64,000 nucleotides of DNA from contig NZ_OY776222.1 of assembly GCF_963675395.1 (NCBI RefSeq), forward strand, positions 1,364,001 to 1,428,000. Direction: 5' to 3'. Source of the DNA: an uncultured Vibrio sp. (GTDB taxonomy: Bacteria > Pseudomonadota > Gammaproteobacteria > Enterobacterales > Vibrionaceae). The number at the start of each line of letters is the position of its first letter. The stretch's first letter is position 1. The position numbers and the translations under genes are program-made. Positions 16,404 through 37,510 of the stretch are shown piece after piece. The notes under the pieces were generated by a model. That model worked only from the letters and a program-made list of their open reading frames with translations, was not told the origin of the DNA and did no database searches.

Positions 16404-16589
16404 TTATTTGTTCTCTAATTTCCTTTTTGAAATATCATCAGTGTCCGGCTCACTGTTCATTGCGTTTTTAAAACTTTTTATTGCTGAACCTAAATCACCA
16501 CCAACGTTGCGTAATTTTTTGGTACCAAATAGCAATACTACAATCACAGTGATAATCGCTAATTGCCAAATGCTGATTCCTCCAATCAT
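16404..16589 (-). CDS. TatA/TatE-family twin-arginine translocase subunit (spare copy)
   Basis: The 61-aa protein has one N-terminal membrane helix ([18 protein letters not shown]), the TatA hinge [20 protein letters not shown] with its amphipathic helix, and a short charged tail. TatA-type subunits form the pore of the Tat pathway that exports folded proteins. No tatB or tatC is nearby, so this is an accessory copy. AGGGAGAAG precedes the ATG. It is the last gene of a GNAT-dehydrogenase-tatA run, 6 kb from a gene with a twin-arginine signal. Confidence 0.9.
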
Positions 16590-16634
16590 AATTTCTTCTC
16601 CCTAGAATAATTATCAATTAAAGCGTTTATAGGC

Positions 16635-17711
16635 TTATATTTCGAGCAAATCTAGAACCTCATGTTCTATTTCTGTCCCTAAGTCCTGAGTCGATGCATT
16701 TCCGCCCATATCCGGCGTTAAGTTTGCACCTCTGGCAATAACATTTTCTATGGCTTTAACAATGATGTCATGTTCTAAAGAAAACCCAAGGTGATCCAGC
16801 ATCATTGCACCAGCCCATATGGTACCAATAGGGTTTGCAATATTTTTTCCGTAGATATCAGGTGCTGAACCATGTACTGGTTCAAACATAGAGGGATAAT
16901 TCTTTTCCGGGTTGATGTTCGCAGATGGAGCAATTGCGATCGTACCTGTACAACCTGGTCCCAAATCAGAAATAATATCGCCGAATAAATTAGAGCCCAC
17001 GATCACGTCAAACATTTCCGGTTTATTAACAATGTTCGCCGTTAAAATATCGATATGGTATTGATCTGTTTTGCAATCGTAATCTTTGGCAATTTCATGG
17101 AAACGTTCATCCCAGAACGGCATTGAGTGATAGAGACCATTCGATTTAGTCGCTGACGTTACGTGTTTTTTATCCAGCTTAGTTGCTAACTCAAATGCGT
17201 ATTTAATAACGCGGTCTGTCCCTTTTTTCGTAAACACACTTTGTTGCAAAACAAATTCGTCATCTGTTCCTGCTGCAAACCGACCACCAATATCAGAGTA
17301 TTCACCTTCAATATTTTCACGAACAACCCAAAAATCGATGTCACCAACCTTTTTATCTTTCAGTGGGCAGTCAACTCCATCAAACAAGCGGACTGGACGC
17401 AAGTTTATATACTGTTGAAATTGTTTACGGATAGGAAGCAACAGACCCCATAATGAGACGTGGTCGGGAACACTCGGGAAACCCACAGCACCAAGATAAA
17501 TAGAATCGTAAGTCAACAACGTTGACATGCCATCTTCAGGCATCATTCGGCCTGTCTCTAAATAGGTTTCACACGACCAGTCAAAATTATCAAACACCAT
17601 TTTGCAATCACTGTTGCGAGACAAAGCTGCATTAATAACTTTGATACCTTCTGGGGTAACCTCTTTACCTATGCCGTCACCCGGAATGACAGCGATTTTA
17701 AAATCTTCCAT
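16635..17711 (-). CDS. tartrate dehydrogenase-like NAD-dependent beta-hydroxyacid oxidative decarboxylase
   Basis: The 358-aa enzyme belongs to the isocitrate/isopropylmalate dehydrogenase family: VIPGDGIGKEV at the N-terminus, WVVRENIEGEYS for substrate and metal binding, GSNLFGDIISDLG and EPVHGSAPDIYGKNIANPIG. The sequence is closest to tartrate dehydrogenase/decarboxylase (TtuC/YeaU-like) proteins, which act on tartrate or D-malate. It is 13 bp from the GNAT gene upstream and 45 bp from tatA downstream. The true substrate is uncertain. Confidence 0.85.
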   Translation of the reverse strand: MEDFKIAVIPGDGIGKEVTPEGIKVINAALSRNSDCKMVFDNFDWSCETYLETGRMMPEDGMSTLLTYDSIYLGAVGFPSVPDHVSLWGLLLPIRKQFQQYINLRPVRLFDGVDCPLKDKKVGDIDFWVVRENIEGEYSDIGGRFAAGTDDEFVLQQSVFTKKGTDRVIKYAFELATKLDKKHVTSATKSNGLYHSMPFWDERFHEIAKDYDCKTDQYHIDILTANIVNKPEMFDVIVGSNLFGDIISDLGPGCTGTIAIAPSANINPEKNYPSMFEPVHGSAPDIYGKNIANPIGTIWAGAMMLDHLGFSLEHDIIVKAIENVIARGANLTPDMGGNASTQDLGTEIEHEVLDLLEI

Positions 17712-17724
17712 GTGTTAACTCACC

Positions 17725-18594
17725 TTAACCTAAAGCCTGAGTCATTAAGCAAAATTGATTAAAACTCGAATCTAATTTTGGCGTATCACCTTTCACCATT
17801 TGGACAACGGTGTCCACTTTATTTAGTCCCCAGTTAACCAATTGAGTACTTATATCTGGATTCCCGACAATATCCAGACGAACAAACTTGTCATGACAAT
17901 CCACTAGATGATGAGCGATTAAACTTAATGCATTTTGGCTACTTTCTGCGATAACAGGTCCGATACACCACCCTCGTCCAAATCTACGTAATGCGGCAAA
18001 ACCAGTAACTTTACCTTGCTCCTCAACCATCAGGATACGATCAGATATACTGGTAACTTTATTGGCTAAAGATTCACGATCCATTCCGGTCGATTTGCTC
18101 ATCAACTCAACTAAACGCAAGTAATCACTTTCGTCATATTCACGTATTGAGGCTTGATTGGCAGGCATAATGAGCTCTATCTTTGAAGAATCGATTTCAT
18201 TCTGGTACTGCTCTACCACTGCATATTGGTCAAACCCGAGTTTTTGATATAGAGGCTTACCCATTTCCGTCGCAGTAAGATACAGAGATACCTCATCAGA
18301 ACATTGCGACATAATTTCATTCATAATTTGTTTGCCAAAGCCGTTGCCCTGATATTCATCAGCAATAACGATTAATCCAACACTGGCATAATTGCCTTGA
18401 GGGATTAAACAGGCAGTGCCAATAATTTGATCATCGGCTTCCATTACGAGTGACGTACCTAAAGAGTGGATATCGCTCCAATCCGCTAGCGTATGGGGCC
18501 ATTTTAGTCTTTGTGTTAACTCATGGGCATCATACAAGTCCGAGATGTCCATGGGACGAATGGTTGCATTAATGCCAGGAATCACTATATCCAT
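17725..18594 (-). CDS. GNAT N-acetyltransferase with two acetyltransferase-like halves
   Basis: The 289-aa protein has an N-terminal GNAT domain with the acetyl-CoA loop YQGNGFGKQIM, then a second, weaker GNAT-like half (MVEEQGKVTGFAALRRFGRG). It begins the minus-strand operon with the dehydrogenase and tatA. A TTG at 18609 is in frame, but ATG 18594 has AAAGGA correctly placed. It is divergent from the aldehyde dehydrogenase, suggesting shared control. The acceptor amine is unknown. Confidence 0.8.
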   Translation of the reverse strand: MDIVIPGINATIRPMDISDLYDAHELTQRLKWPHTLADWSDIHSLGTSLVMEADDQIIGTACLIPQGNYASVGLIVIADEYQGNGFGKQIMNEIMSQCSDEVSLYLTATEMGKPLYQKLGFDQYAVVEQYQNEIDSSKIELIMPANQASIREYDESDYLRLVELMSKSTGMDRESLANKVTSISDRILMVEEQGKVTGFAALRRFGRGWCIGPVIAESSQNALSLIAHHLVDCHDKFVRLDIVGNPDISTQLVNWGLNKVDTVVQMVKGDTPKLDSSFNQFCLMTQALG

Positions 18595-18680
18595 GTCATA
18601 TCCTTTCAACTGTTTTTGCTGGAAATTTATGTCCTATTTGTAGAAACAATATTACGAATTATCAGCGGTAGATTGCACCG

Positions 18681-18696
18681 TTTTTAAGACTAAAAA
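18681..18696. promoter_or_regulatory. inverted repeat in the GNAT / aldehyde dehydrogenase divergent promoter
   Basis: TTTTTA-AGAC-TAAAAA is a perfect 6-bp inverted repeat with a 4-nt spacer, preceded by CCG. A very similar element, preceded by CCG and also with a 4-nt spacer, lies in the other divergent promoter of this cluster (34720-34737). Candidate operator for the Lrp-type regulator of the cluster. Confidence 0.4.
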
Positions 18697-18793: not shown

Positions 18794-20260
18794 ATGGATT
18801 GGTACACCCCTTCAAATATTACTATCCCTAAAGGGCATTTTATTGATGGTCAACTTATAACGATGGATGACGATTTAGCTTTAGACGTGACTTGTCCTTC
18901 AACAGGTAGGCCTTATGCTTCTTTAGGTTGCGCATCTATTGCAACCACTGAGTTAGCGATAGAAAAATCCCATCTAGCCTTTGAAACAACAAACTGGGCA
19001 TCCATACCGCCAAGAGAAAGAGCGGCATTTTTGTACAAATGGTCTTCACTTATAAAAGAGAATGCAACACAACTGGCTGAATTAGAGTCACTGGGTTCAA
19101 GTCGCCCATACTACGAAGTATTACAATGGGATATTCCTTATGTAGTCGATTGCCTTAATTTTTTTGCAGAACTGGCAGACAAGCATGGTGGTTATGTCGG
19201 TGCAACTCAACAAGATCGTTTAGGTATGGTTATAAATCAGCCTTACGGTGTTATCGGCGCAATCGCACCATGGAATTTCCCGATGAGCATGTTGGTCTGG
19301 AAAGTGGCCCCTGCTCTTGCAGCAGGAAATGCTGTGGTATTGAAACCTTCCGAACTTACCCCATTCACAGCAGTTTATCTTGCCAAATTGGCTTGTGAAG
19401 CTGGGATTCCAGACAACATTTTTAATGTCGTACAAGGGGATGGAAAAACAGTTGGCCAAACCCTATGTCGCCACCCGAAAATTGGCAAGGTCACATTTAC
19501 TGGTTCCACCGCTACCGGTGCTGCAATTATGTCTACTTGTGCTCTGAACGGGCCAAAGATGTCTACTTTAGAACTAGGAGGCAAAAGCCCACAAATAGTA
19601 TTCGCCGACGCAGATATAGAAAAAACAGCCCTAATGGTTGCGAAAGCTATTACTGGTAATGCTGGTCAGGTTTGTGTTTCAGGCTCCAGACTCATTGTTC
19701 ATCAATCCATCGCAGAACAAATGACGGAAATTGTTATTAGCCATTTTAAAGATCTAAAGTCCGGCCCAACGTGGGAAAAAGAAACGACGCTTCCCCCTAT
19801 TATCTCGGCCAATCAGGCAGACAGAATTCAGTCCATCATAAATCAAAGCATCGAAGAAGGTGCAGAATTACTCTACGGCGGCGAGTTAATAAAAAACGGT
19901 GGCAGTTTTTGTAAGCCAACCTTGCTGAAAGTAACACAGACAAACAATTGTGCTGTTGAACAAGAAATTTTTGGACCGGTATTAACACTTCAGACATTTG
20001 ACACTGATGAGCAGGCCTGGGAACTGGCCGGTCACAAGAGCTATGGATTAGCTGCGGGAATCCATACTAAAGATATTAATCGAGCTCTAACTGGCATGCG
20101 CCGTATTGATGCCGGCTCAGTATGGATTAACCGTTATGGTCGCTCTTTTGACCACATTATGCCTACAGGCGGCTTTAAATCCTCTGGTATAGGTAAAGAC
20201 ATCGGTGTAGAAGCATTTCAGGGCAGCATGCGAAGTAAAAGTGTATTAATAGATTTCTAG
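18794..20260 (+). CDS. NAD(P)-dependent aldehyde dehydrogenase
   Basis: The 488-aa protein is a complete ALDH: cofactor-site APWNFPMSM, GSTATGAAI, catalytic glutamate in LELGGKSPQ and nucleophilic cysteine in GNAGQVCVSGSR, with the terminal PTGGFKSSGIGKD. It resembles betaine/gamma-aminobutyraldehyde dehydrogenases and would oxidise an aldehyde made by one of the amine oxidases downstream. ATG 18794 follows TTAGGACATGACAT. A strong terminator ends this transcript, so it is a separate unit in the cluster. Confidence 0.92.
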   Translation: MDWYTPSNITIPKGHFIDGQLITMDDDLALDVTCPSTGRPYASLGCASIATTELAIEKSHLAFETTNWASIPPRERAAFLYKWSSLIKENATQLAELESLGSSRPYYEVLQWDIPYVVDCLNFFAELADKHGGYVGATQQDRLGMVINQPYGVIGAIAPWNFPMSMLVWKVAPALAAGNAVVLKPSELTPFTAVYLAKLACEAGIPDNIFNVVQGDGKTVGQTLCRHPKIGKVTFTGSTATGAAIMSTCALNGPKMSTLELGGKSPQIVFADADIEKTALMVAKAITGNAGQVCVSGSRLIVHQSIAEQMTEIVISHFKDLKSGPTWEKETTLPPIISANQADRIQSIINQSIEEGAELLYGGELIKNGGSFCKPTLLKVTQTNNCAVEQEIFGPVLTLQTFDTDEQAWELAGHKSYGLAAGIHTKDINRALTGMRRIDAGSVWINRYGRSFDHIMPTGGFKSSGIGKDIGVEAFQGSMRSKSVLIDF

Positions 20261-20654: not shown

Positions 20655-21329
20655 ATGAGTACACTTAAGCCTAAATTCATCACGTTTGATTGTTACGGCA
20701 CGCTAACAAACTTCCAAATGGGCACTATGACGCGAGAGATATTTAAGGACAGAATTTCTCCGGAACGCATGGAAGCATTTGTTCAAGGTTTTAGTAAATA
20801 CCGTTTAGATGAAGTGATGGGCGAATGGCAACCTTACGATCAAGTACTTAAAAGTGCTCTGGAACGTACCTGTAAACGCTGGGGAATCGCATACAATGAT
20901 GCTGAAGGACAAAGCTATTACGATGCAGTACCAACCTGGGGACCACATGCAGATGTACCATCAGGTCTTGCTCGTCTTGCAAAAGAGTTTCCACTGGTCA
21001 TTTACTCAAATGCGAGCGACAGCCAAATCAACAGCAACGTAGAACAGCTTGGAGCTCCTTTCCACCGTGTATTTACTGCAGAAGAGGCGAAGGTATATAA
21101 ACCACGCTTAGCAGCATTTGAATACATGATCGACAACCTTGGTTGTGCTCCGGAAGAAATTCTTCACGTTTCATCAAGCTTCCGTTACGACTTGTTCTCT
21201 GCTGATGATATGGGTATCAAGAACAAGGCGTTTATTGCTCGTGGTCATGAGCAGCCAGCAAACAGCATTTACTCTTACCACCAGGTGCCTGACATCAACG
21301 GACTTGCTGACTTATTAGGTCTTGACTAA
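20655..21329 (+). CDS. HAD-superfamily hydrolase, haloacid dehalogenase type II-like
   Basis: The 224-aa protein has HAD motif I TFDCYGTLT with nucleophile D12, motif II VIYSNAS and the later lysine in EAKVYKPRL, the pattern of class-I haloacid dehalogenase-like proteins. The family includes true L-2-haloacid dehalogenases and many phosphatases, so the reaction is open. It is the first gene of a plus-strand operon, 23 bp before the FAD oxidase. Confidence 0.8.
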   Translation: MSTLKPKFITFDCYGTLTNFQMGTMTREIFKDRISPERMEAFVQGFSKYRLDEVMGEWQPYDQVLKSALERTCKRWGIAYNDAEGQSYYDAVPTWGPHADVPSGLARLAKEFPLVIYSNASDSQINSNVEQLGAPFHRVFTAEEAKVYKPRLAAFEYMIDNLGCAPEEILHVSSSFRYDLFSADDMGIKNKAFIARGHEQPANSIYSYHQVPDINGLADLLGLD

Positions 21330-21352
21330 CCCATACGGATCAGGAGTCGGCT

Positions 21353-22627
21353 ATGATCAATCAATCATTTTGGATCGACACTAAACCAGCGTTTAAGTTA
21401 GGTACTGATCAATTTGGTAGTAGTCACTACGACGTGGCTATTATTGGCGGTGGGCTTACTGGGCTGGCAGCAGCCCATACCTTAGCAAAACAAGGTGCCT
21501 CTGTTGCGTTATTTGAAAGCGGTCAAATCATGGAGCAGGCATCGGGGCAAAATGGCGGCCAGTGTAGCACTGGTGTCGCTCAGGATTTTGCTTCACTTGC
21601 TTCTACCATCGGCCTTGAAAAAGCCAAGCGCTACTACAATGCGTATTCGGACGCCGTAGATTATTTGCGCAACATTATTATCGAAGAAAACATTGAGTGT
21701 GAGTATCGGGAAAGTGGCAAATTAAAACTGGCAGCAAAACCACAACATGCTGAAAAAATTCATAAGACTTATGAGCTAATCAAGCAAGAAGTGGACTCTA
21801 ATGTTGAGTTTCTTGATGCGAATGCCGTGAAAAGTGAAATTGCTTCTGATGAGTTTTACGCTGGAATGGTTCAGAAAAATGCTTTCCAGATCCACGTTGG
21901 TAAACTGGGTATAGGCATTGCAAACAGTGCTGCCAACTATGGCGCGCACATATTTGAGAACAATCCAGTCACTGGCATTAAAAACCAGGGTCAGCAATAC
22001 TCCATTGAATCTCCCAAAGGAAAAATTACCGCTAAAGACGTCATTGTTGCTAGTGGAATAAGTAAAGATGGGCCTTTGGGATGGTTCCGACGCCGTATTG
22101 TGCCAGTTGGAAGCTTCATTCTCGTAACGGAGAAAATAGACCCCAAAATCATTGAACGTCTGATGCCAAACAAACGTTCATATGTAACCAGTCGAATCAT
22201 CGGTAATTACTTCCGTGTTATGGGTGATGACCGACTCCTGTTCGGAGGCCGCGCTCGCTTCGCGATGTCCGATTCGAAATCTGATGCTATCAGTGGGCAA
22301 ATTCTACTCAAAGCTATGGGTGATATGTTCCCTGATTTGAAAGATGTCAAAGCTACCCATTGCTGGGGTGGACTGGTCGATATCACACCTAATCGTTTAC
22401 CGAAAGCTGGTCAACATGATGGGATGTTCTATGCCATGGGCTACAGCGGCCATGGCGTACAAATGTCTGCATTTATGGGTCAGCAAATGGCAAAAATGAT
22501 TTCTGGTGACAGCAATGCTAACCCCTGGAATGAGGAGTCCTGGTACCCAATACCTGCGTACAACGGAAAACCATGGTTCCTTCCAATGGTCGGTGCTTAT
22601 TACCGGCTCCAGGATTATCTCCATTAA
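21353..22627 (+). CDS. FAD-dependent amine oxidoreductase, PuuB-like (DAO family)
   Basis: The 424-aa flavoprotein has the Rossmann signature VAIIGGGLTGLAAAHTLAKQ near residue 28, EQASGQNGGQCS as the DAO-family FAD contact, and the C-terminal CWGGLVDITPNRLP and YSGHGVQ. This is the architecture of gamma-glutamylputrescine oxidase (PuuB) and related secondary-amine oxidases. It probably converts an N-substituted amine to an aldehyde that an ALDH of the cluster oxidises. The precise substrate is not shown. Confidence 0.85.
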   Translation: MINQSFWIDTKPAFKLGTDQFGSSHYDVAIIGGGLTGLAAAHTLAKQGASVALFESGQIMEQASGQNGGQCSTGVAQDFASLASTIGLEKAKRYYNAYSDAVDYLRNIIIEENIECEYRESGKLKLAAKPQHAEKIHKTYELIKQEVDSNVEFLDANAVKSEIASDEFYAGMVQKNAFQIHVGKLGIGIANSAANYGAHIFENNPVTGIKNQGQQYSIESPKGKITAKDVIVASGISKDGPLGWFRRRIVPVGSFILVTEKIDPKIIERLMPNKRSYVTSRIIGNYFRVMGDDRLLFGGRARFAMSDSKSDAISGQILLKAMGDMFPDLKDVKATHCWGGLVDITPNRLPKAGQHDGMFYAMGYSGHGVQMSAFMGQQMAKMISGDSNANPWNEESWYPIPAYNGKPWFLPMVGAYYRLQDYLH

Positions 22628-22674
22628 TTTAAGGGTCGTATGTATAACTCGTAATATAGAAAGGACGCAATATT

Positions 22675-24303
22675 ATGAAAGATAAGAAAATTATTACTGG
22701 ACAAGAGTGTATAAATGATTTTGAAAGGCTAACTCAAGAAGGCCGTTCAAGACGCAATTTATTGAAATCTTTCGGTGTAGCGGGTTTAGCATTCGCTGCA
22801 GCCAGTGCAACGTCAGTTCCCTTTAATGTGTTAGCTCAAGCTGAAGACTCAAAACCAGCGGTTGGAGAGCCCGGCGGCAAAATCCGGGTCGCAAGTTTAT
22901 CATCATCCACTTCCGATACTTTAGACCCAGCCAAAGGCGCTCTATCCACAGATTACACTCGTCATTACATGGTCTATAACGGTCTGACCAAGTTTGACGA
23001 ACATCTGGTTCCACATATGGAACTTGCTGAAAGCATCGATAATGAAAACGCGACTATCTGGCACATTAAATTACGTCAAGGCGTCCTTTTCCACGATGGC
23101 AAAGAACTAACTTCTGAAGACGTCGTATATTCGCTTAACCGCCATAAAGATCCTGCCATTGGATCAAAGGTAATGGGGTTAGCAGAGCAATTTAAGACGA
23201 TTAAAGCGGCCGGAAAATACGAAGTAACGATTGAACTTCAATCGCCAAATGCTGAATTACCTTCTATTCTAGCCGTTTCTCACATGCTTATCGTTCCAGC
23301 TCATGTCAGCGACTTGAGTAAAGGTATTGGTACAGGTCCATTCAAAGTTAAAAACTTCAAACCAGGGATGCAAACCGTAGTAGTTAAAAACGAAAACTAC
23401 TGGAAACCAGGCCTGCCATACCTTGATGAAATCACCCTTTTCGCTATCCCGGATGAGCCGTCGCGCGTAAACGCACTGTTATCAGGAGAAGTTCATGTCA
23501 TCAACAACGTTGACCCTCGTTCAACACAGCGAATAGCAGCAAGTCAAGGCCACCAATTCGTTAACGCGCCATCGGGTAACTATACCGATCTTATCGTTCG
23601 TCAGGATATGATGCCAGGTAAGAGTGCTGAATTTACTGAAGCCATGAAACTGTTGATGGACAGGGAACAAATTAAATCAGCAATATTCCAGGATTTTGCA
23701 GTTGTCGGTAACGACACCCCTATTGCTCCGGGAGCGCGTTACTTCAATAGCGAACTACCACAGACACAATATGACCCGGATAAAGCTAAATATCTAGTTA
23801 AAAAAGCGGGACTGGCCGACGCCAAAATACCATTAGTGGCATCAACAGCAGCAACCAGCTCGGTTGAAATAGCAGTACTAATGCAACAATCTGCGGCTAA
23901 AGTCGGTATCAATATTGATGTGCAGACCAAACCCGCAGATGGATATTGGTCAAATCACTGGGCTAAGCACCCACTTAGCTTCGGTAATATAAACCCACGC
24001 CCTAACGCTGACATTATATTCTCACAATTTTTCTTATCCAGTGCGTCGTGGAACGAATCTAAGTGGAAAAACAGCCGGTTTGATCAACTTCTTCTGGATG
24101 CACGTAAAGAGACAGATGACAGCAAACGTGGCCAGATGTATGCGGAAATGCAAACCTTGGTTAATCAAACCAGCGGTATTGGTATTCCTGTCTTTATTAG
24201 TAATATCGACGGTGTAGATTCACGATTGAAAGGCTATGGTACAAACCCACTCGGTGGCTTCATGGGATATATGTTCGCGGAAAAAGTATGGCTTGATGCT
24301 TAA
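22675..24303 (+). CDS. peptide/opine-type ABC transporter binding protein with Tat signal (SBP_bac_5)
   Basis: The 542-aa protein is a family-5 extracellular solute-binding protein like DppA/OppA (YNGLTKFDEHLVPHMELAES, then LRQGVLFHDGKELTSEDVVY). Its N-terminus has a twin-arginine signal, SRRNLLKSFGVAG with RR at 26-27, a hydrophobic stretch and a likely cleavage after LAQA near residue 55. It should therefore be exported folded by the Tat system. The ligand is unknown; the family binds peptides, opines and similar compounds. It leads the four-gene importer set. Confidence 0.9.
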   Translation: MKDKKIITGQECINDFERLTQEGRSRRNLLKSFGVAGLAFAAASATSVPFNVLAQAEDSKPAVGEPGGKIRVASLSSSTSDTLDPAKGALSTDYTRHYMVYNGLTKFDEHLVPHMELAESIDNENATIWHIKLRQGVLFHDGKELTSEDVVYSLNRHKDPAIGSKVMGLAEQFKTIKAAGKYEVTIELQSPNAELPSILAVSHMLIVPAHVSDLSKGIGTGPFKVKNFKPGMQTVVVKNENYWKPGLPYLDEITLFAIPDEPSRVNALLSGEVHVINNVDPRSTQRIAASQGHQFVNAPSGNYTDLIVRQDMMPGKSAEFTEAMKLLMDREQIKSAIFQDFAVVGNDTPIAPGARYFNSELPQTQYDPDKAKYLVKKAGLADAKIPLVASTAATSSVEIAVLMQQSAAKVGINIDVQTKPADGYWSNHWAKHPLSFGNINPRPNADIIFSQFFLSSASWNESKWKNSRFDQLLLDARKETDDSKRGQMYAEMQTLVNQTSGIGIPVFISNIDGVDSRLKGYGTNPLGGFMGYMFAEKVWLDA

Positions 24304-24433: not shown

Positions 24434-25393
24434 ATGAATAATATTTTGTTAGTTCTCGTCGTACGTAGGCTTCTCAGTGCCTTACTTACACTGTTTCTCG
24501 TCTCGATTGTTGTTTTTGCTATTACCAACATACTACCGGGTGATGCTGCGCAACAGATTCTGGGACAATTTGCGATGCCTGAACAAGTTGCAGCTTTACG
24601 AAGTCAATTAGGGCTCGACCAACCAGCTACAACACGCTACTTTCACTGGTTATTCAATTTGCTTAGCGGTGATCTGGGGCAATCATTTGCCAATAATATG
24701 CCAGTAAGCGAACTTATGGATGACCGTTTACAAAACACTCTGATGTTAGCAGCAGCCACATCGATAGTATCAGTACCTATCGCTCTGATGCTTGGCATTT
24801 GGTCAGCGATTTACCGAAATGGGCGCCTGGATCGAGTGCTCAACCTCATCACACTATCTTTGGTGGCTGTTCCTGAATTTTTAGTGGCAACCATTGCCGT
24901 GCTTATCTTCGCAGTAAAACTACACTGGTTCTCAGCTATCTCTTACGGCGGTTATGGTGAAGGTATTCTCGATTTTTTACGCTCCTATACTCTACCCGTA
25001 ATGACATTGTGTTTCGTCATTACCGCACAGATGGCGCGTATGACACGAGCTGCCATGGTTGACGAGTTAAGCACAAGTTATATAGAAATGGCTCACCTGA
25101 AAGGCCTATCCACCATAAGAATAGCTTTCATTCACGCTCTGCCTAATGCCATTGGACCCATCGCCAACGCAGTAGCATTAAGTCTGTCTTATCTGTTTGG
25201 AGGCGTGGTAATTGTCGAAGCCATATTCAATTTCCCTGGTATTGCCGGACTAATGGTTGATGCTGTTACCAACCGAGACATCGCATTAATTCAGGCTTGT
25301 ACCATGTTGTTCTGCACTGGCTATTTAGTTCTTATTTTACTAGCTGACATCAGTGCCATCGTATTCAACCCAAGATTAAGGAATAAAGTATGA
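24434..25393 (+). CDS. ABC transporter permease, DppB/OppB-like
   Basis: The 319-aa inner-membrane protein has about six membrane helices and the DppB-type features LPGDAAQQILG near the N-terminus and the EAA loop YIEMAHLKGLSTIRIAFIHALPN (quoted in part here as residues near 215-235). With the next gene it forms the channel of the importer. The stop overlaps the next start (ATGATG at 25390), indicating coupling. Confidence 0.9.
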   Translation: MNNILLVLVVRRLLSALLTLFLVSIVVFAITNILPGDAAQQILGQFAMPEQVAALRSQLGLDQPATTRYFHWLFNLLSGDLGQSFANNMPVSELMDDRLQNTLMLAAATSIVSVPIALMLGIWSAIYRNGRLDRVLNLITLSLVAVPEFLVATIAVLIFAVKLHWFSAISYGGYGEGILDFLRSYTLPVMTLCFVITAQMARMTRAAMVDELSTSYIEMAHLKGLSTIRIAFIHALPNAIGPIANAVALSLSYLFGGVVIVEAIFNFPGIAGLMVDAVTNRDIALIQACTMLFCTGYLVLILLADISAIVFNPRLRNKV

Positions 25394-29792: not shown

Positions 29793-29795
29793 ACA

Positions 29796-30947
29796 ATGAA
29801 TACAATAAAGAGTAAGTACGATGTAATCATTATCGGTGGTGGGTTCATGGGAGCATCAAGCGCGTTTTTTATGGCAAAACGTGGTTTGAAAGTTCTGCTG
29901 CTTGAACGGGACAAAATTGGCCAATATGCCAGTGGTGTGAATTTTGGCAACGTGCGCCGTCAGGGCCGCCATTTAAAGCAACTTGATCTTGCAAACCGTT
30001 CACTTTCTCTATGGAAACAGTTGCCTGAATTAATCGGTGAAGACCTCGAATTTATCCCCAGTGGTCACATGCGAGTCTGCTATCAGGAATCTAGTATTGC
30101 TCAGCTGGAAGCATACGCCAACGCTCCAGAAGCCAAAGAATTAGGAATACAGATACTTACGGGAAAACAGCTACGAGAAAAATTTCCTTATCTTGGGCAC
30201 GAGGTTGTAGCAGGTTCACTTGCTCCTTTTGATGGTCATGCCAACCCCCGTTTGGCAGCTCCGGCATTTGCTCGCGCTGCTAAAAAGTTAGGAGCAACCG
30301 TTTTAGAAGGAGTAGAAGTCACTACTATTGAAAAATCAAACGCTGGATTTTCAGTGTTATGCAAAACAGGTGAGAACTTCCATTCGGAGCAATTACTGGT
30401 AACAGCTGGTGCCTGGGGAGAAAAGTTATCCAATCAGATGAACGAATCGGTTCCGCTTTTTGCACGCGGGCCGCAAATGAGTGTAACAGAGCCTCTTCCT
30501 TACCGATTTAAAACCGTTATTGGCGTTTCAACTAATGTTACCGAAGAAGAGCTCTACTTCCGGCAGATACCAAGAGGCAACATCATCATCGGTGGATGCA
30601 ACCGTTCGATTCCTGATATGGAAACGCGCACTGTACAATTCGAACCTAAATCTCTGATTCTTCAGATGCAACAGATGGCTCGTATCGCACCAGAAATTGG
30701 CAACGTGAATATCATCCGGACCTGGAGCGGTATCGAAAGCTATCTCCCGGATTCACTTCCAATTATGGGGCCAAGCTCCACAACGGATGGCCTGTACTAT
30801 GCGTTTGGCTTTTGCGGACATGGTTTCCAGTTAGGTCCTGCTGTTGGCGATGTCATGGCAGAGCTAATCACAACCGGTTCTACCAGCACACATATAGAAT
30901 CCTTTAGTATTAAACGCTACACCGAAAGCTTAAAGAGAAGTGCCTGA
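29796..30947 (+). CDS. FAD-dependent catalytic subunit, HcnC/OoxB-like (DAO family)
   Basis: The 383-aa flavoprotein has IIGGGFMGASSAFFMAKRG at the N-terminus, SGVNFGNVRRQGR as the FAD contact region and GFCGHGFQLGPAVGD at the end. It is like HcnC, opine oxidase subunit B and sarcosine oxidase beta. With the preceding two subunits it should dehydrogenate a secondary amine or imino acid to an imine, which hydrolyses to an oxoacid or aldehyde plus an amine. Starts 3 bp after the previous stop. Confidence 0.87.
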   Translation: MNTIKSKYDVIIIGGGFMGASSAFFMAKRGLKVLLLERDKIGQYASGVNFGNVRRQGRHLKQLDLANRSLSLWKQLPELIGEDLEFIPSGHMRVCYQESSIAQLEAYANAPEAKELGIQILTGKQLREKFPYLGHEVVAGSLAPFDGHANPRLAAPAFARAAKKLGATVLEGVEVTTIEKSNAGFSVLCKTGENFHSEQLLVTAGAWGEKLSNQMNESVPLFARGPQMSVTEPLPYRFKTVIGVSTNVTEEELYFRQIPRGNIIIGGCNRSIPDMETRTVQFEPKSLILQMQQMARIAPEIGNVNIIRTWSGIESYLPDSLPIMGPSSTTDGLYYAFGFCGHGFQLGPAVGDVMAELITTGSTSTHIESFSIKRYTESLKRSA

Positions 30948-32122
30948 TGGATACAAAAGAACTGCTTAAACGACTGATTTCCTATGCAACCATATCATCC
31001 GAATCGAATCTGGAATTAATCTGTTTTATTCAGGGTATTCTGTCGTCGAAAAACATAGAATCTCAGTTGGTTTACAATCAAGACCAAACCAAAGCAGCGA
31101 TGTTTGCGACGATAGGCCCTAAAGACAAAGCTGGGATTTTGTTTTCCGGTCATTCCGATGTTGTGCCAGTAAAAGGCCAAAACTGGAATTCAGATCCATT
31201 TAACGCAGTGGAAAAAGAAGGAAAGATATTTGGTCGTGGTGCCTGCGATATGAAAGGTTTTATCTCATCCGCAATCAATGTCCTACTGGAGTTTTCTAAC
31301 AAAGAACTTTCACGCCCTATTCATCTGGCTATCAGTTTCGATGAAGAGCTTGGGTGCCTTGGCGTAAAAGACTTATTAATGCAGTTACAACAACTCAATA
31401 TCGAGCCTTATTTATGTATCGTGGGTGAACCTACCAACATGAATATTGCCACCGGTCATAAAGGAAAGACCGCATATCGGGCGCATTGCTGTGGTGATGA
31501 AGGTCATTCATCACTCGCACCCTTACATACCAATGCCATTTATCTGGCCTGTGATGTGATTTCTCATTTGCGTTCTATACAAGCAGATCTAATTGCCAAC
31601 GGTGCCCATGACGATGAATTCGATGTTCCTTATTCGACGGTTCATATCGGTACCATCAATGGCGGTCGTTCGCTAAATATTGTTCCGGGCCAATGTGAAT
31701 TTGAATTCGAAATCCGTCATCTACCTGAAGACGACATCGAAGGTCATTTAAATACTCTGTTTAGACAAGCTGAAAACCTTGTAAATACAACAAAACAGGA
31801 TAAGCCACATTCAAACGCCAGCATCCAATTCGACTGTCTGACCAATTACCCGGGATTGGATGCTGATAGAAATCATTCTTCAATAAAAGCTTTAGCCTCT
31901 CTAGCGCCGAGGGATACACAAGTTTTAAAAGTCGCATTTGGAACGGAAGGGGGTTTATTTTCTCAGTACCTTTCATCACCAGTTGTGATTTGTGGTCCGG
32001 GTTCCATAGAACAAGCACATAAACCTGATGAGTTCGTTACGTTATCTCAGCTAGAGCAATGTGACCAACTATTAAACAAATTCGTATTAGAAACATGCAT
32101 TCAACGGAGTGAACATGATTAA
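30947..32122 (+). CDS. M20-family deacylase, ArgE/DapE-like
   Basis: The 391-aa metallopeptidase has GHSDVVPVKG (metal ligand H69, catalytic D71), GRGACDMKGF (bridging D101), FDEELGCLG (catalytic glutamate near 133) and CGPGSIEQAHKPDEF with the last histidine. It resembles acetylornithine deacetylase and would hydrolyse an N-acyl or gamma-glutamyl amide bond of a pathway intermediate. One-base overlap with the previous gene and a short overlap with the next show a single operon. Confidence 0.88.
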   Translation: MDTKELLKRLISYATISSESNLELICFIQGILSSKNIESQLVYNQDQTKAAMFATIGPKDKAGILFSGHSDVVPVKGQNWNSDPFNAVEKEGKIFGRGACDMKGFISSAINVLLEFSNKELSRPIHLAISFDEELGCLGVKDLLMQLQQLNIEPYLCIVGEPTNMNIATGHKGKTAYRAHCCGDEGHSSLAPLHTNAIYLACDVISHLRSIQADLIANGAHDDEFDVPYSTVHIGTINGGRSLNIVPGQCEFEFEIRHLPEDDIEGHLNTLFRQAENLVNTTKQDKPHSNASIQFDCLTNYPGLDADRNHSSIKALASLAPRDTQVLKVAFGTEGGLFSQYLSSPVVICGPGSIEQAHKPDEFVTLSQLEQCDQLLNKFVLETCIQRSEHD

Positions 32123-33584
32123 TGAATCAGTAAAACAGCAGTTGTCTTGCAAAGAACTGCTAACAGATAAAGCTTACATTAATGGAACATGGTGTTATTC
32201 AGATGATGAAAAATCTATTGATATCATCAACCCTTCAACACAGGAAGTGGTAGCAACAGTTCCAGACCTTACCGATGAACAAGTCATTTCTTCTATCGAA
32301 TTGGCAGACGAGGCATGGAAATCGTTCAAAAAAACCAGCGCATCTGAACGCTCAAGCATGCTGATGAGATGGTATCAGCTCATGATGGATAATGCCGACG
32401 ATCTGGGCTTAATCATGACACTGGAACAAGGGAAACCACTACCCGAAGCAAAAGGTGAAATCACTTACGCAGCCAGCTTCATCAAATGGTTTGCTGAAGA
32501 AGCAAGACGAGTTCACGGCGAAACACACCAGAACCCTTCACCGACTCAACGGGTGATGACCATTAAGCAACCGGTTGGTGTGTGTGCAGCGATTACTCCT
32601 TGGAACTTCCCGGCAGCAATGATCACGCGTAAATGCGCACCTGCGATTGCAGCAGGCTGCCCTATCATTGTGAAACCAGCAGATCTTACCCCGCTAACTG
32701 CGTTGGCATTAGGTGTGTTGGCTGAAAAAGCGGGCATTCCAGCCGGTATTTTCAATGTGATTACGGGTGATGCTGCGAGAATCGGTAATCAACTCACAGC
32801 AAGCCCAACCGTACGCAAAATCACCTTTACCGGTTCAACGCGTGTCGGCAGCTTACTAATGGAGCAAAGTGCGCCGACCATAAAGCGACTTAGTTTAGAG
32901 TTGGGTGGTAATGCTCCATTTATTGTGTTTGATGATGCAGATATTCCACAAGCTATCACTGGTGTCATGGCGAGCAAATTCCGTAATGCCGGCCAAACCT
33001 GTGTGTGTGCAAACCGTATTCTTGTCCACGACTCTATTTATGAAAAATTTACTGAGGCTCTTATCAGTGCAGTATCAGAACTTAAAGTCGGTGATGGCCT
33101 TGAAGACGGTGTCACAATCGGTCCGCTGATTAACAAAGCTGCCGTTGAAAAAGTAAAACATCACATTGACGATGCTTTGGCAAAAGGTGCAAACCTGGTA
33201 CATGGTGAAATCCCGTCAGTCGACAGCCAGTTTGTTATTCCAACGATTATTACTGATGTAACAATCGATATGATTGTTTCTCAGGAGGAAACATTTGGTC
33301 CACTCGCTCCACTGTTCCGTTTTACTACTGATGAAGAAGCGATTCAGATAGCGAATAACACACCATATGGGTTAGGTGCTTACTACTATACACAAAACCT
33401 TAAACGTGCGTGGCATGTAGGCGAAGCGCTGGAGTTCGGTATGATCGGTCTGAACTCTGGTGTGATCTCAATGGATTCAGCACCGTTCGGCGGTATCAAG
33501 CAATCAGGTCTGGGCCGCGAAGGTTCAAATCTTGGTATTGACGAATATTTGGAAGTAAAAGCCTGGCATATGGGAGGCTTATAA
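32115..33584 (+). CDS. succinate-semialdehyde dehydrogenase-like aldehyde dehydrogenase
   Basis: The 489-aa ALDH has TPWNFPAAMITRK, GSTRVGSLL, LELGGNAP and the catalytic FRNAGQTCVCANR, matching the GabD/SSADH clade including the double-cysteine region. It would oxidise succinate or glutarate semialdehyde to the dicarboxylate. ATG 32115 is chosen over a GTG at 32109 because CGGAGTG is well placed before it. It overlaps the deacylase gene by 8 bp and is closed by a strong terminator. Confidence 0.9.
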   Translation: MINESVKQQLSCKELLTDKAYINGTWCYSDDEKSIDIINPSTQEVVATVPDLTDEQVISSIELADEAWKSFKKTSASERSSMLMRWYQLMMDNADDLGLIMTLEQGKPLPEAKGEITYAASFIKWFAEEARRVHGETHQNPSPTQRVMTIKQPVGVCAAITPWNFPAAMITRKCAPAIAAGCPIIVKPADLTPLTALALGVLAEKAGIPAGIFNVITGDAARIGNQLTASPTVRKITFTGSTRVGSLLMEQSAPTIKRLSLELGGNAPFIVFDDADIPQAITGVMASKFRNAGQTCVCANRILVHDSIYEKFTEALISAVSELKVGDGLEDGVTIGPLINKAAVEKVKHHIDDALAKGANLVHGEIPSVDSQFVIPTIITDVTIDMIVSQEETFGPLAPLFRFTTDEEAIQIANNTPYGLGAYYYTQNLKRAWHVGEALEFGMIGLNSGVISMDSAPFGGIKQSGLGREGSNLGIDEYLEVKAWHMGGL

Positions 33585-33624: not shown

Positions 33625-34557
33625 TTAGTATCCCTTTCTGCGGTCTATCAAACCTTCCGGCTTTTGCCCCTCTCGCCATTCAAGCAAGCTTTTCTCTAAT
33701 GATTCAAAACCTGACTCAGGACGAGTCACACCCGCTATATGTGGTGTAACCATCACCTTGGGATGCGTCCACAATTCACTCTCTTCTGGTAATGGCTCCA
33801 CTATCGCAACATCCAGAATTGCGTTGCCGATCTGACCACTATTTAACGCCTGAATAAGCTCCTCTTCAATAAGATGTTCTCCTCGCCCAATGTTAATCAG
33901 GCTGCATCCAGCAGGTAATTGAGAAAATAACTTTTTTCTCAATATATTTTTAGTATTTTCAGTTAGAGGAAGTACACACAATAAAATATCAAGATCTGAC
34001 AGGAACCTATTCAAGTTATTTTGATCATAACAACTCACTCCATCAATAGAGTGCAGTGATCTGGACCATCCCTTAAGGTGAAAATCGAAAGGTTTTAATT
34101 TCTCAATAATTTTAAGCCCTTGTTTACCTAATCCCATAATACCTATATGTGTATTTCTAGTTAGTTTGATGCTCAAGGGTTTCCACTGTTTAGCGCTTTT
34201 GCATTGTAAATAATCCAAAGCCCGACGGTATAACATGAGCACAGACATCGCAGCATATTCTGCTAACTGATTAGAAAGATCTTCATCAATCATACGTACT
34301 ACATCAACATGAGAAGGGATGATCGTAAAATCAATTTGATCAATACCTGCAGAAACTGTAAATATCGCTTTGAGGTTCGGCATTTTGCTAATGAGATCCG
34401 AAGTAAGTTTCCAGACAACTAGAACATCAATACTGGCAAGCTCAACCTCATCTGGCCAAACATGGAAATTTATAGTCTTATGATGCTTAGACATACTCTC
34501 CTGCCATATTCGCCCTCTTTTCTCTTCCGAGTAATATAAAACTTCAAGCGATTTCAT
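33625..34557 (-). CDS. D-2-hydroxyacid dehydrogenase, GhrA-like
   Basis: The 310-aa NAD(P)-dependent reductase has the nucleotide fold IGIMGLGKQGLKI and the catalytic set R in NIGRGEHL, E in VEPLPEE and H in TPHIAG. It resembles glyoxylate/hydroxypyruvate reductase A. In this cluster it may reduce an oxoacid such as glyoxylate released by the flavin dehydrogenase, which is inference. ATG 34557 follows AAGGAATTGTG. Confidence 0.87.
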   Translation of the reverse strand: MKSLEVLYYSEEKRGRIWQESMSKHHKTINFHVWPDEVELASIDVLVVWKLTSDLISKMPNLKAIFTVSAGIDQIDFTIIPSHVDVVRMIDEDLSNQLAEYAAMSVLMLYRRALDYLQCKSAKQWKPLSIKLTRNTHIGIMGLGKQGLKIIEKLKPFDFHLKGWSRSLHSIDGVSCYDQNNLNRFLSDLDILLCVLPLTENTKNILRKKLFSQLPAGCSLINIGRGEHLIEEELIQALNSGQIGNAILDVAIVEPLPEESELWTHPKVMVTPHIAGVTRPESGFESLEKSLLEWREGQKPEGLIDRRKGY

Positions 34558-34878
34558 CACAATTCCTTATCTAATTATTTCCATATTTTTATCAAAAAAC
34601 ACAATAACAACAATAGCAACACTATCGAAATCCGATAATAATTGGCAGTTGTTAAACAGAATATTTTATCCCTACGACTATGTTTAACAGCATACTGTAC
34701 CCACACAATAAAACCTGCCGTTTTGAATGCTCAAAACAGTTAAATATGGGTAATACGGTCTCGAATTAAGCGTCCTACGCCGCACAAAAATGTTAACTTT
34801 TTTAATATGCTCACTGTGTACTAATTAGCATCCATATGGTGAGCGTTGAAAATGTTTAAACTATGGAAAGGTATCAAT
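34558..34878. promoter_or_regulatory. divergent promoter region of hydroxyacid dehydrogenase and aminotransferase genes
   Basis: About 320 bp, AT-rich, no gene. It contains the inverted repeat at 34720-34737 described separately. An in-frame ATG at 34852 also lies here but is judged less likely than 34879 as the aminotransferase start. Confidence 0.5.
34720..34737. promoter_or_regulatory. perfect inverted repeat, candidate operator
   Basis: GTTTTGA-ATGC-TCAAAAC is a perfect 7-bp inverted repeat with 4-nt spacer, preceded by CC. It resembles the 18681-18696 element in sequence (CCGTTTT), spacer length and location between divergent genes of the same pathway. Confidence 0.45.
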
Positions 34879-36177
34879 ATGGACACTAGTAATCCTCGCT
34901 CTCAAAAATTGCTTTCAGAAAAAGAACTTCATGTACCAAGGGGGCTTGTTAACGCACACCCTATCGCTTTAGATACAGCAAATGGTGCAGAATTATGGGA
35001 TGTCGATGGCAATCGTTATCTTGATTTTGTCGGTGGAATTGGTGTACTGAACATTGGGCATAATCATCCAAATGTCACAAATGCCGTTGTAGAACAGCTC
35101 GCTAAAGTGTCTCACCCATGCGCTCAAGTAACCGTGTACGAACCGTATCTTGAAGTCGCTAAAAAATTGAATCAACTGGTTGGTAAGGGTGAAGACTACA
35201 AAACCGTGCTTCTTTCCTCTGGCGCGGAAGCGGTAGAAAATGCGGTCAAGATTGCTCGTGGATACACAAACCGTCCGGCAGTTATCTCCTTCAAAGGCGG
35301 CTTCCACGGTCGTACTCTGTTAGGTAGCACTCTTACAGGTATGAGTGCGCCCTATAAGCAGAACTTTGGTCCAATGGCTGGTGAAGTTTACCATGCGACC
35401 TACCCTAACCCTTTTTACGATATTTCTATAGAAGATTCACTGACTTCAATTGAAGACATCTTCACATGTGACGTCACTCCCGATCGCGTTGCAGCGATCA
35501 TCGTAGAATCAGTACAAGGTGATGGTGGCTTCCTCGCTCCGGAAAAAGAGTTCTTCCAAAAACTACGTGAAATAACCACTCAACATGGCATCGTCCTTAT
35601 CATGGATGAAATTCAGGCTGGCTTTGGTCGCACAGGTAAAATGTTTGGCTTTGAACACTCAGAAATCCAACCTGATATCGTGACTACAGCTAAAAGCTTA
35701 GCTGGCGGTTTCCCTCTTTCAGCGGTTGTTGGTAAAGCTGAAATTATGGATGGCCCGAAACCAGGTGGCTTAGGTGGTACTTATGGCGGTAATGCGATTG
35801 CCTGTGCAGCAGCATCTGCTGTAATCGATCTTTACACTAAAGACGATTCTTTACTTTCAATGGCTAGACAACGTGGTCATTTCTTCCGTGAAGGTCTGAA
35901 TGCGATTGAATCGAAATTCTCTAACGTCGCTAACGTACGTGGCCTTGGCTTCATGCTGGCTATCGAAATCGTCTCGGATACAAATACCATCGATGACAAT
36001 GCAAACCTCACGCAGGCAGTTATCGATGAATGTCGTGAGCAAGGTTTAGTGGTCATTAAGTGCGGTACATATCGCAACGTAATTCGTTTCTTACCACCAA
36101 TCAACACGTCCGAACAAATACTAACAGAAGCTCTAGGTATGCTAACTAAAGCTTGTGAAAACGTTTTTAGCAAATAA
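34879..36177 (+). CDS. class-III PLP aminotransferase, GabT-like
   Basis: The 432-aa enzyme has SSGAEAVENAVKIAR, the PLP-contacting MDEIQAGFGRTGK and the Schiff-base lysine in TTAKSLAGGFPLSAV. It is closest to 4-aminobutyrate/5-aminovalerate transaminases, which make the semialdehyde that a GabD-like enzyme oxidises. ATG 34879 has GGAAAGG upstream; ATG 34852 would add nine residues. It probably supplies the semialdehyde for the enzyme at 32115. Confidence 0.9.
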   Translation: MDTSNPRSQKLLSEKELHVPRGLVNAHPIALDTANGAELWDVDGNRYLDFVGGIGVLNIGHNHPNVTNAVVEQLAKVSHPCAQVTVYEPYLEVAKKLNQLVGKGEDYKTVLLSSGAEAVENAVKIARGYTNRPAVISFKGGFHGRTLLGSTLTGMSAPYKQNFGPMAGEVYHATYPNPFYDISIEDSLTSIEDIFTCDVTPDRVAAIIVESVQGDGGFLAPEKEFFQKLREITTQHGIVLIMDEIQAGFGRTGKMFGFEHSEIQPDIVTTAKSLAGGFPLSAVVGKAEIMDGPKPGGLGGTYGGNAIACAAASAVIDLYTKDDSLLSMARQRGHFFREGLNAIESKFSNVANVRGLGFMLAIEIVSDTNTIDDNANLTQAVIDECREQGLVVIKCGTYRNVIRFLPPINTSEQILTEALGMLTKACENVFSK

Positions 36178-36192
36178 AAAGGCAACAATAAT

Positions 36193-36256
36193 GCACAGAG
36201 ATGATTCCGCCGAAGTTGAGCTTATGATTTGCGCTCCATGTCGGTGCACTCTGTGC
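36193..36256 (+). repeat. 8-bp inverted repeat before the HAD gene
   Basis: GCACAGAG (36193-36200) and CTCTGTGC (36249-36256) are perfect complements separated by 48 nt, between the aminotransferase and HAD genes. It could form a leader hairpin or be a regulator site. Confidence 0.35.
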
Positions 36257-36288
36257 GTTATAGTGCACATCCAGCAAGGAAGATAACC

Positions 36289-36939
36289 ATGGTTACCACA
36301 CAATTCAGCACTATTGTTATTGATTGTGACGGTGTTTTAGTCAATCACTGTCAGGGGATTTTGGGGAAAATTAATGAACTCCAGCAGAATCTATCGCAAG
36401 ACATACCGTTTCAGCAATCACTCATCCATCAGTATTTAAATCACTATTATTCACTTTCTAGTTCACTAGATGCGAATGGGTTCTGTGCCTCACATTGTTT
36501 TACATTTCAAAACATTATGTCAGGTATAGGCGTTAAAACGTCATGGAAAAAAACCTTTCAGTTTGGTCGCAACATGCGATACTGGCCCATCTATGAAGAC
36601 TCTTATGGTGCCTTACAATATTTTAAAAAGTTTTTCCGAGTTTTCGTCCGTTGCGACCGCGAGCCAGAAGATGTAGCAGACCTGATTAAAAGCCTTGGTA
36701 TTGACCACTCTGAAATAATCATAAGAGACTATAATAATCAAGGACTTAAAAATGAATTGCTGCGTAAAGGAGAGAATATCGAATCTTGCCTGTTGATAAC
36801 AACACCGCGACTGGCTGAACTAACAGAATTTCCTAATGTTCAGGTCATTCGCCGTTCAACCATTTTCAGTCATAACGACCCAGGCCAACGTTCTCTCGCA
36901 CGATTAGTATTTGACCACCAAGATCACCTCCGTAGTTAA
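36289..36939 (+). CDS. HAD-superfamily hydrolase of unknown substrate
   Basis: The 216-aa protein has HAD motif I IVIDCDGVLVN with the D-x-D pair near residue 13. The rest is divergent: the usual motif II and III are not clear, with HSEIIIRDYNNQGLKNELL toward the C-terminus. ATG 36289 follows AAGGAAGATAACC. It lies between the aminotransferase and the Lrp regulator. Phosphatase or dehalogenase activity cannot be decided. Confidence 0.65.
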   Translation: MVTTQFSTIVIDCDGVLVNHCQGILGKINELQQNLSQDIPFQQSLIHQYLNHYYSLSSSLDANGFCASHCFTFQNIMSGIGVKTSWKKTFQFGRNMRYWPIYEDSYGALQYFKKFFRVFVRCDREPEDVADLIKSLGIDHSEIIIRDYNNQGLKNELLRKGENIESCLLITTPRLAELTEFPNVQVIRRSTIFSHNDPGQRSLARLVFDHQDHLRS

Positions 36940-37021
36940 TGGCATTAAATGTGCATTATGTTTCTTGGATTCAAGTACTAAGTTTGATAACGTCAGATGT
37001 CAAATACTAAAAGGTATAGCT

Positions 37022-37510
37022 ATGAACTCGGAAATGAGACTCGACAGAATCGATATTAATATACTGACTCAGCTACAAAAAAATGGACGGATGACCAACG
37101 TTAAGCTCGCCGATGCTGTTGGTCTATCAGCCAGCCCATGTTTACAAAGAGTGAAACGACTCGAGCAATGTGGCTTTATTAAGAACTATAAAGCCTTCCT
37201 GAACATTACAAAAATAACAGAGTACGTAACCGTTTACACAGAAGTGTATTTGAACGGACATAAACGAGAAGATTTCATTAAGTTTGAAAGTAGTATGAAA
37301 AATGTCGATGAAGTTATGGAATGTCACCTTATTAGTGGTGGTTATGACTATTTGGTAAGATTTGTCACTCGCAATATCACTCATTATCAGGAAATTATTG
37401 AGAAACTGGTCGATAGTAATATAGGGATATCAAAATACTTCAGCTACGTGGTGATTAAATCCCCGGTCGTGAAAGATGATATCCCATTACAAAAACTACT
37501 CGCTTATTAA
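37022..37510 (+). CDS. Lrp/AsnC-family transcriptional regulator of the catabolic cluster
   Basis: The 162-aa protein has the Lrp helix-turn-helix (LDRIDINILTQLQKNGRMTN, then LADAVGLSASPCLQRVKRLE) and a RAM/AsnC ligand domain (ECHLISGGYDYLVRF). ATG 37022 follows AAAAGG. Lrp-type regulators usually sense an amino acid and control adjacent catabolic genes, so this is the best candidate regulator for the 16.4-37 kb island and for the inverted repeats at 18681 and 34720. That link is inference. Confidence 0.88.
   Translation: MNSEMRLDRIDINILTQLQKNGRMTNVKLADAVGLSASPCLQRVKRLEQCGFIKNYKAFLNITKITEYVTVYTEVYLNGHKREDFIKFESSMKNVDEVMECHLISGGYDYLVRFVTRNITHYQEIIEKLVDSNIGISKYFSYVVIKSPVVKDDIPLQKLLAY

Follow-up and report, generated by a model that had tools for sequence, protein, structure and literature searches.

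A conserved Vibrio gene island that may catabolise N-substituted azetidine-2-carboxylates such as nicotianamine

Hydrolases of L-azetidine-2-carboxylate (AZC), represented in the PDB by the enzyme of Pseudomonas sp. A2C (3smv, 8yvw, 8ywo) and by entries 8hp5-8hp7, combine a type-II HAD fold with an Asp12 nucleophile and a lysine at position 152, and lack the second aspartate of HAD phosphatases. Here we describe HAD2, which shares these features, and the gene island that encodes it in an uncultured Vibrio sp. (NCBI RefSeq assembly GCF_963675395.1, contig NZ_OY776222.1, positions 1,364,001 to 1,428,000; these 64,000 nucleotides are called the window, and positions below refer to them). The island comprises 18 intact open reading frames between 16635 and 37510, with protein families assigned by Pfam and NCBIfam models with curated cut-offs. 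We propose, at close to even confidence, that it is a catabolic system for N-substituted AZC, most probably nicotianamine and/or a mugineic-acid phytosiderophore. A first-pass annotation of this DNA had seen here a coherent island for the uptake and breakdown of some N-substituted amino compound, with flavin amine oxidases and a GabT/GabD-like drain, and our analysis supports that view.

In Pseudomonas sp. A2C, described by Gross in 2008, the AZC hydrolase gene reportedly lies beside transporters for small amino acids, and not beside an Opp-type importer and amine oxidases. A second described system is that of Aspergillus nidulans, which handles AZC by the HAD hydrolase AzhA, the GNAT protein NgnA (detoxification) and the GABA transaminase GatA (use) (PMC8016842). 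The island offers the same three classes of enzyme for opening, acetylation and transamination; unlike the island, the A. nidulans route, as given in the sections of that account drawn on here, has no identified transporter and no amine oxidases or malate-forming steps (PMC8016842).

HAD2 (20655..21329, plus strand) scored over the cut-off of TIGR01428, and its nearest PDB sequences are the L-AZC hydrolases 8hp5 and 3smv (87 and 85 bits, with 83-84 for mutants of these enzymes), followed by a cis-epoxysuccinate hydrolase at 51 bits and the haloacid dehalogenase 3um9 at 48 bits. An AF2 model (pLDDT 91.9) had 8hp5-7 and 8yvw as its top fold matches, tied with the haloacid dehalogenase 7arp. The aspartate nucleophile D12 and the catalytic lysine K149 of this type-II fold are invariant across 36 aligned rows and align with D12 and K152 of the AZC hydrolases. 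A role as a phosphatase was ruled out, the DCYGT motif being devoid of the second aspartate of HAD phosphatases. HAD2 differs from the AZC hydrolases in that identity is only about 26% and the stretch around residues 36-60 is dissimilar. Judged by sequence, HAD2 is akin to the L-AZC hydrolases and is predicted to open L-AZC; HAD enzymes that open azetidines may therefore comprise a second branch, divergent from the first. For 8hp7, a mutant of 8hp5, the entry title names trapped (2R)-4-amino-2-hydroxybutanoic acid.

With a (2R) product, D-malate would be expected downstream, and this matches an enzyme present in the island. The enzyme, TTC (16635..17711, minus strand), is a dehydrogenase of the tartrate/D-malate type (TIGR02089, 519.6 bits against a cut-off of 470.4; PRK08194, a second curated model, 489.2 against 501) and scores 467.5 bits with the tartrate dehydrogenase/decarboxylase 3flk; its family oxidises D-malate, and the genome holds a single further homologue, at 38% identity. 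Between HAD2 and TTC would stand AT3 (34879..36177, plus strand; PF00202), a class-III aminotransferase that falls just under the cut-off of the GabT model TIGR00700 (483.7 against 506.65 bits) and is probably GabT-like in working, though not classed as GabT, and an SSADH-like aldehyde dehydrogenase (32109..33584, plus strand) with 682.8 bits for TIGR01780 (cut-off 646.35) and 660.2 for the narrower PRK11241 (cut-off 828). Because at least three other adjacent pairs of class-III aminotransferase and SSADH-like genes exist in the genome (C1:1487904+1489197, C2:448439+449716 and C1:79343+77767), an extra pair together with TTC fits a 2-hydroxy compound well and plain GABA poorly. That HAD2, AT3, SSADH and TTC form one line from hydrolysis to D-malate is, in our judgement, somewhat likelier than that nicotianamine is the substrate.

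What precedes the hydrolysis is suggested by the genes that follow HAD2, all on the plus strand. DAO1 (21353..22627; PF01266), a PuuB/AmaA-like flavin amine oxidase, has the pipecolate oxidase AmaA as its best NCBIfam match. L-pipecolate oxidase acts on the N-CH2 side, the one remote from the carboxyl group, and the resemblance, at 161 bits far under the cut-off of 600, would fit the bond to be cut in N-substituted AZC. Next comes an importer composed of an SBP_bac_5 binding protein (22675..24303; PF00496), ABC permeases 1 (24434..25393; PF00528, PF19300) and 2 (25390..26217; PF00528), and a double ABC ATPase (26228..28117; PF00005 twice, PF08352; start set at an ATG within the reading frame). 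In composition it is like the Opp/Nik/Cnt-type importers of peptides, nickel chelates and opine metallophores, but its binding protein differs from theirs in carrying a twin-arginine signal motif (R26 and R27 invariant in alignments of 21 and 28 rows) and in scoring far under the cut-off of every named NCBIfam substrate-binding model that it matched. The fold of the binding protein (model pLDDT 75) is closest to NikZ, AapF and SaNikA, near-tied with many others; AgaA and MoaA, both opine-binding SBP_bac_5 proteins, are also among the neighbours, and no ligand class was singled out by the fold searches. Since an importer of the Opp/nickel/opine type and DAO oxidases accompany HAD2, we favour N-substituted over free AZC. 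The proposed pathway offers a possible role for the many importers whose annotation goes no further than 'peptide/nickel' or ABC transporter.

The second oxidase is encoded by three adjacent genes: a 2Fe-2S protein (Fer2_4; 28114..28425; PF13510), an HcnB-like FAD/NAD protein with a BFD 2Fe-2S domain (Pyr_redox_2, Fer2_BFD and SO_alpha_A3; 28404..29792; PF07992, PF04324, PF17806) and an HcnC/SoxB-like DAO flavoprotein (29796..30947; PF01266; best PDB match 1y56_B). From this composition we take the trimer to be of the HcnABC, opine oxidase or D-hydroxyproline dehydrogenase type, in which subunits of the same kinds occur in the same order.

Of the N-substituted AZCs that occur in nature, nicotianamine and the mugineic acids are the best known. 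Starting from gene content, its conservation, the kinship of HAD2 and the absence of a close second copy of TTC, all of them direct observations, we infer a substrate, a set of reactions and an order of oxidases as follows. The SBP_bac_5 importer would bring the chelator into the cell, possibly with a metal bound. Both flavin amine oxidases, DAO1 and the trimer of HcnABC type, would cut CH2-N bonds, so that the aminocarboxypropyl (or hydroxycarboxypropyl) arms leave as semialdehydes and L-AZC is freed; the semialdehydes could be oxidised by ALDH1 (18794..20260, plus strand; PF00171), an aminobutyraldehyde/betaine-aldehyde-like dehydrogenase that scored under the cut-off of each of 25 NCBIfam models listed, to yield aspartate in the case of nicotianamine. 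Asp12 of HAD2 would then attack AZC and open it with inversion to produce (2R)-4-amino-2-hydroxybutanoate, which AT3 may transaminate to (R)-malate semialdehyde; the SSADH-like enzyme would convert this to D-malate, and TTC D-malate to pyruvate and CO2. The GNAT protein (17725..18594, minus strand; PF18014, PF13508), a double-domain N-acetyltransferase, could serve as a safety valve by acetylating AZC, a toxic analogue of proline, perhaps together with the M20 deacylase (30947..32122, plus strand; PF01546), an acetylornithine-deacetylase family member over the cut-offs of TIGR01892 and PRK07522. A comparison with PDB sequences found no close solved relative of GNAT, so its part in AZC handling is proposed by analogy only. 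The Lrp/AsnC-type regulator (37022..37510, plus strand; PF13412, PF01037) would regulate the island. For GhrA (33625..34560, minus strand; PF02826, PF00389), a D-2-hydroxyacid dehydrogenase-like protein that reaches 210.3 bits with PRK15469, far under the cut-off of 403, and for the HAD-like protein HADx (36289..36939, plus strand), roles in the same pathway are conjectural.

The company of the binding protein was followed through 82 loci, 79 of them from a survey of named genomes that kept the 80 best of 571 relatives, and three from plasmids. As the loci were selected by the binding protein, the counts describe that protein's company and not prevalence; they are lower bounds, many loci ending at contig ends or at the 10-kb flank, and the identity thresholds were our own choice. 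The binding protein itself was matched in 81 of the 82, each permease and the ATPase in 72, DAO1 in 74, HAD2 in 66 at 53% identity or more (67 at 50%), and the full importer together with HAD2 in 64. Among the 67 loci with HAD2, DAO1 was present in 66, the full importer in 64 and GNAT in 55 (61/82 overall, at 27% identity or more). Other members were less constant: SSADH in 42 of 82, ALDH1 in 39, GhrA in 37, Lrp in 27, M20 in 24 and the trimer in 43, the latter thus differing from HcnABC-type trimers both in being embedded in a larger island and in not being found in 39 of these loci. AT3 was counted in 46 loci, 11 at 50% identity or more and 35 only at 25-40%; two of these weaker matches that were typed, from Paraburkholderia and Alteromonas, belong to subfamily PRK05965. 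TTC occurred in 32 loci when at least 50% identity was required and in 33 at 47%, and in 31 of the 33 it lay within 1.5 kb of SSADH, AT3, Lrp, GhrA or GNAT.

Largely the same genes are kept together in loci of Pseudomonas, Halomonadaceae, relatives of Burkholderia, Variovorax and Alteromonas, and the grouping is not due to chance. A strain-specific island was ruled out by these loci and by the orthologues of the binding protein in other bacteria. Since the upstream LysR and PhnT/PhnU genes were found in none of the 82 loci at the thresholds used, the boundary lies near the one drawn in the first-pass annotation.

Among the matches listed (best 120 of 4571), binding-protein orthologues are 71-85% identical in several Vibrio, Candidatus Celerinatantimonas neptuna and Pokkaliibacter, and 64-68% identical in many Pseudomonas. 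A tree of 27 binding proteins groups the Vibrio rows with Celerinatantimonas, with Pokkaliibacter as their neighbour and Pseudomonas beyond it. The protein of Candidatus Celerinatantimonas neptuna (P0008) nests among the Vibrio rows, which suggests exchange between coastal bacteria. Among these close relatives the neighbourhood was seen for Vibrio salinus (L016, L104), and the binding protein only for the other Vibrio, Celerinatantimonas and Pokkaliibacter. In V. salinus, GhrA-AT3-HADx-Lrp follow SSADH, as in the window. Lrp is 85% identical in V. salinus and 72% in Pseudomonas poae, and is downstream of AT3 and HADx in both; homologues of HADx stand beside AT3 or Lrp in V. salinus, P. poae and the halomonads.

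A sample of 149 Pseudomonas genomes built around that of P. poae (G150, a carrier and counted in), and apart from this centre free of selection by the binding protein, gave a less biased measure of linkage, the tables being read by eye. The binding protein was present in 29 of the 149 and HAD2 (at least 50% identity) in 31, all 29 being among the 31, so that 2 of the remaining 120 genomes (G181 and G303) have HAD2 without the binding protein. HAD2 lay within 3 kb of the binding-protein gene at 30 of 33 places; at the other three (two on G211:C26, and G165:C1:2536683) DAO1 and/or GNAT was close by. These three places (loci L098-L100) hold close paralogues of the binding protein, and their substrate may differ. 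Across the class, 369 genomes yielded the binding protein in one, the window's own, and HAD2 in two, its own and one other; among 150 Vibrionaceae the binding protein had matches in four, three of them only 33-34% identical, with a close copy only in its own genome. The system is patchy, being found in about a fifth of the sampled Pseudomonas and rare in the class sample.

Several loci depart from the common plan. In halomonads ALDH1 and HAD2 flank a single DAO protein, and no trimer was found in their loci. Within the 20 kb read of the L118 genome, GNAT-ALDH1-DAO-HAD2-GhrA-HADx-Lrp stand together, and the importer, DAO1, AT3 and SSADH are absent. Of the two loci in P. poae, the second (L095) is devoid of permease or ATPase within the 30 kb fetched; there, as in modules of other Pseudomonas genomes (L110-L112 and L036), HAD2 is accompanied by an APH-type kinase and a PRK06148-like class-III pyridoxal-phosphate (PLP) enzyme, with a GntR-type regulator in L112 (families typed on L112 and L036, and assigned by similarity in the others). 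HAD2 travels with class-III PLP enzymes and amine oxidases. Paralogous binding-protein loci (L051, L063, L067, L068 and L070) carry hydantoinase A/B-like, DAO1-like and class-III aminotransferase genes, which suggests related substrates; the hydantoinase calls rest on Pfam for the B family, on L064, and on inspection by eye for A.

The kinase variant may represent another way to process the product of HAD2, or another substrate. It is not explained by the scheme proposed above, weighs against it, and is the strongest argument for still considering an amino-alcohol pathway.

The rival that survives best, though we consider it unlikely, is an opine-like pathway: an opine or similar N-alkyl amino acid would enter through the importer and be split by the trimer, while HAD2 would carry out an unrelated hydrolysis. 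Such a pathway would suit the composition of the trimer, which matches the HcnABC/opine-oxidase type, and the presence of AgaA and MoaA among the fold neighbours of the binding protein. However, the loci in which the trimer was not found (some of them cut short) are many and those with HAD2 are more numerous than those with the trimer, and HAD2, TTC and AT3 are not known to have a role in opine routes. Opine, gamma-glutamyl and N-acyl substrates had all been suggested for this island at first; each of these readings leaves HAD2 without a role.

Less probable still is a pathway for an amine of gamma-glutamyl, N-acyl or polyamine type whose final product, by way of GabT and GabD, would be GABA or 5-aminovalerate. 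The Puu and Gab pathways of Escherichia coli do share with the island a PuuB-like oxidase, an aldehyde dehydrogenase and a GabT/GabD-like pair, and the M20 deacylase would find a place as well. Yet, going by family assignments, no PuuA-like gamma-glutamyl synthetase and no gamma-glutamyl hydrolase (PuuD) is present among the 18 genes, while the island adds an AZC-hydrolase-like HAD, TTC, GNAT, M20 and an Opp-type importer. This account leaves HAD2 and TTC unexplained, relies on an M20 deacylase found in few of the 82 loci, and duplicates GabT/GabD-like pairs already in the genome. The proposal that GABA or 5-aminovalerate is the product is accordingly unsupported, TTC and the AZC-hydrolase-like HAD pointing to D-malate instead.

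It is quite improbable that the island serves mainly to detoxify free AZC and draw nitrogen from it, in the manner of Pseudomonas A2C and A. nidulans, with the oxidases forming a separate pathway. HAD, GNAT and a GABA-type transaminase do make up the A. nidulans set, as far as the sections drawn on describe it (PMC8016842), but the near-constant presence of the full importer and DAO1 in HAD2 loci, albeit loci chosen by the binding protein, argues otherwise, as free AZC needs neither. Hypusine or another hydroxylated polyamine conjugate, oxidised to 4-amino-2-hydroxybutanal and by ALDH1 to (R)-4-amino-2-hydroxybutanoate before the D-malate exit, would by chemical reasoning employ the DAO oxidases, ALDH1, AT3, SSADH and TTC with the right stereochemistry, but is very improbable because it leaves without a role the C-X hydrolase HAD2, whose gene stays close to those of the importer.

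Nicotianamine serves plants in the transport of metals, and many of the carriers, which belong to Pseudomonas, relatives of Burkholderia, the halomonads and some Vibrio, presumably live on plants or in soil. Plant nicotianamine is counted among AZC derivatives, its synthase joining three aminocarboxypropyl groups and cyclising the terminal one to AZC, according to the portion of the source used here (PMC11794875). Grasses secrete phytosiderophores that rhizosphere bacteria degrade; Pseudomonas fluorescens SBW25 reduced the amounts of mugineic acid and deoxymugineic acid near the roots of Brachypodium, and Pseudomonas putida strains were reported not to degrade phytosiderophores (PMC7786132). 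The same study, in the sections drawn on here, called the taxa and genes for this degradation currently unknown in 2021 and proposed iron-responsive candidates in SBW25 (a porin, a transport-associated OB-domain protein and a monooxygenase-type protein), none of which, going by the families named there, is in the island (PMC7786132). In a search with the P. poae binding protein, neither SBW25 nor P. putida is named among the best 120 of 517 matches, in which a cluster carries the name of one member. Candidatus Celerinatantimonas neptuna, which inhabits Posidonia root tissue and has gabT among its most transcribed genes according to the part of the report used (PMC8636270), is a seagrass-root endophyte that carries the binding protein, the only island protein seen from it.

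Among the matches listed from open-licence literature on the degradation of nicotianamine or phytosiderophores and on AZC hydrolysis products, no description of a pathway of this kind turned up. Nor did that literature, including papers sought on opines together with haloacid dehalogenases and on gamma-glutamylputrescine oxidase, yield a characterised operon with a defined substrate that matches the island, a match that would have spoken against the first-pass annotation. It is possible, though short of an even chance in our estimate, that the island is the missing bacterial gene set for the catabolism of nicotianamine and mugineic-acid phytosiderophores, with a new HAD subfamily and a D-malate exit. 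If so, it would let bacteria destroy the plant's iron carrier, and this conserved set, whose key enzyme is open to testing, would link the competition of bacteria for such carriers to identified genes.

The remaining features concern layout and surroundings. The window lies on the smaller of the two contigs of the genome (1.57 versus 3.19 Mb), which its nearest binding proteins mark as Vibrio. First come TTC and GNAT, both on the minus strand; ALDH1 is next, followed by an eleven-gene run, GhrA (minus strand) and AT3-HADx-Lrp. The run, HAD2-DAO1-SBP-P1-P2-ATP-Fer2-HcnB-HcnC-M20-SSADH (20655-33584), is unbroken, with gaps of -22 to 130 bp. All genes named by the first-pass annotation are present, and its gene set was borne out gene by gene by intact reading frames and Pfam or NCBIfam families, save for the second of its two HAD proteins: the first is the type-II HAD of TIGR01428, whereas HADx had zero matches to Pfam or NCBIfam models at the limits used, and only a DxD motif, DCDGVL, read by eye, suggests a HAD protein. 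Base composition gives no foreign sign: the island has 43.0% G+C and the remainder of the window 44.3%. Genes of a PhnT/PhnU2-type 2-aminoethylphosphonate ABC transporter (13050-15811; TIGR03262, 714 bits) lie directly upstream. Beyond the other end are a small HopJ-family protein (38691-39041, minus strand; PF08888, 166 bits, Pfam name HopJ type III effector) and a choice-of-anchor I family protein (39240-41009; NF038117, over the cut-off).

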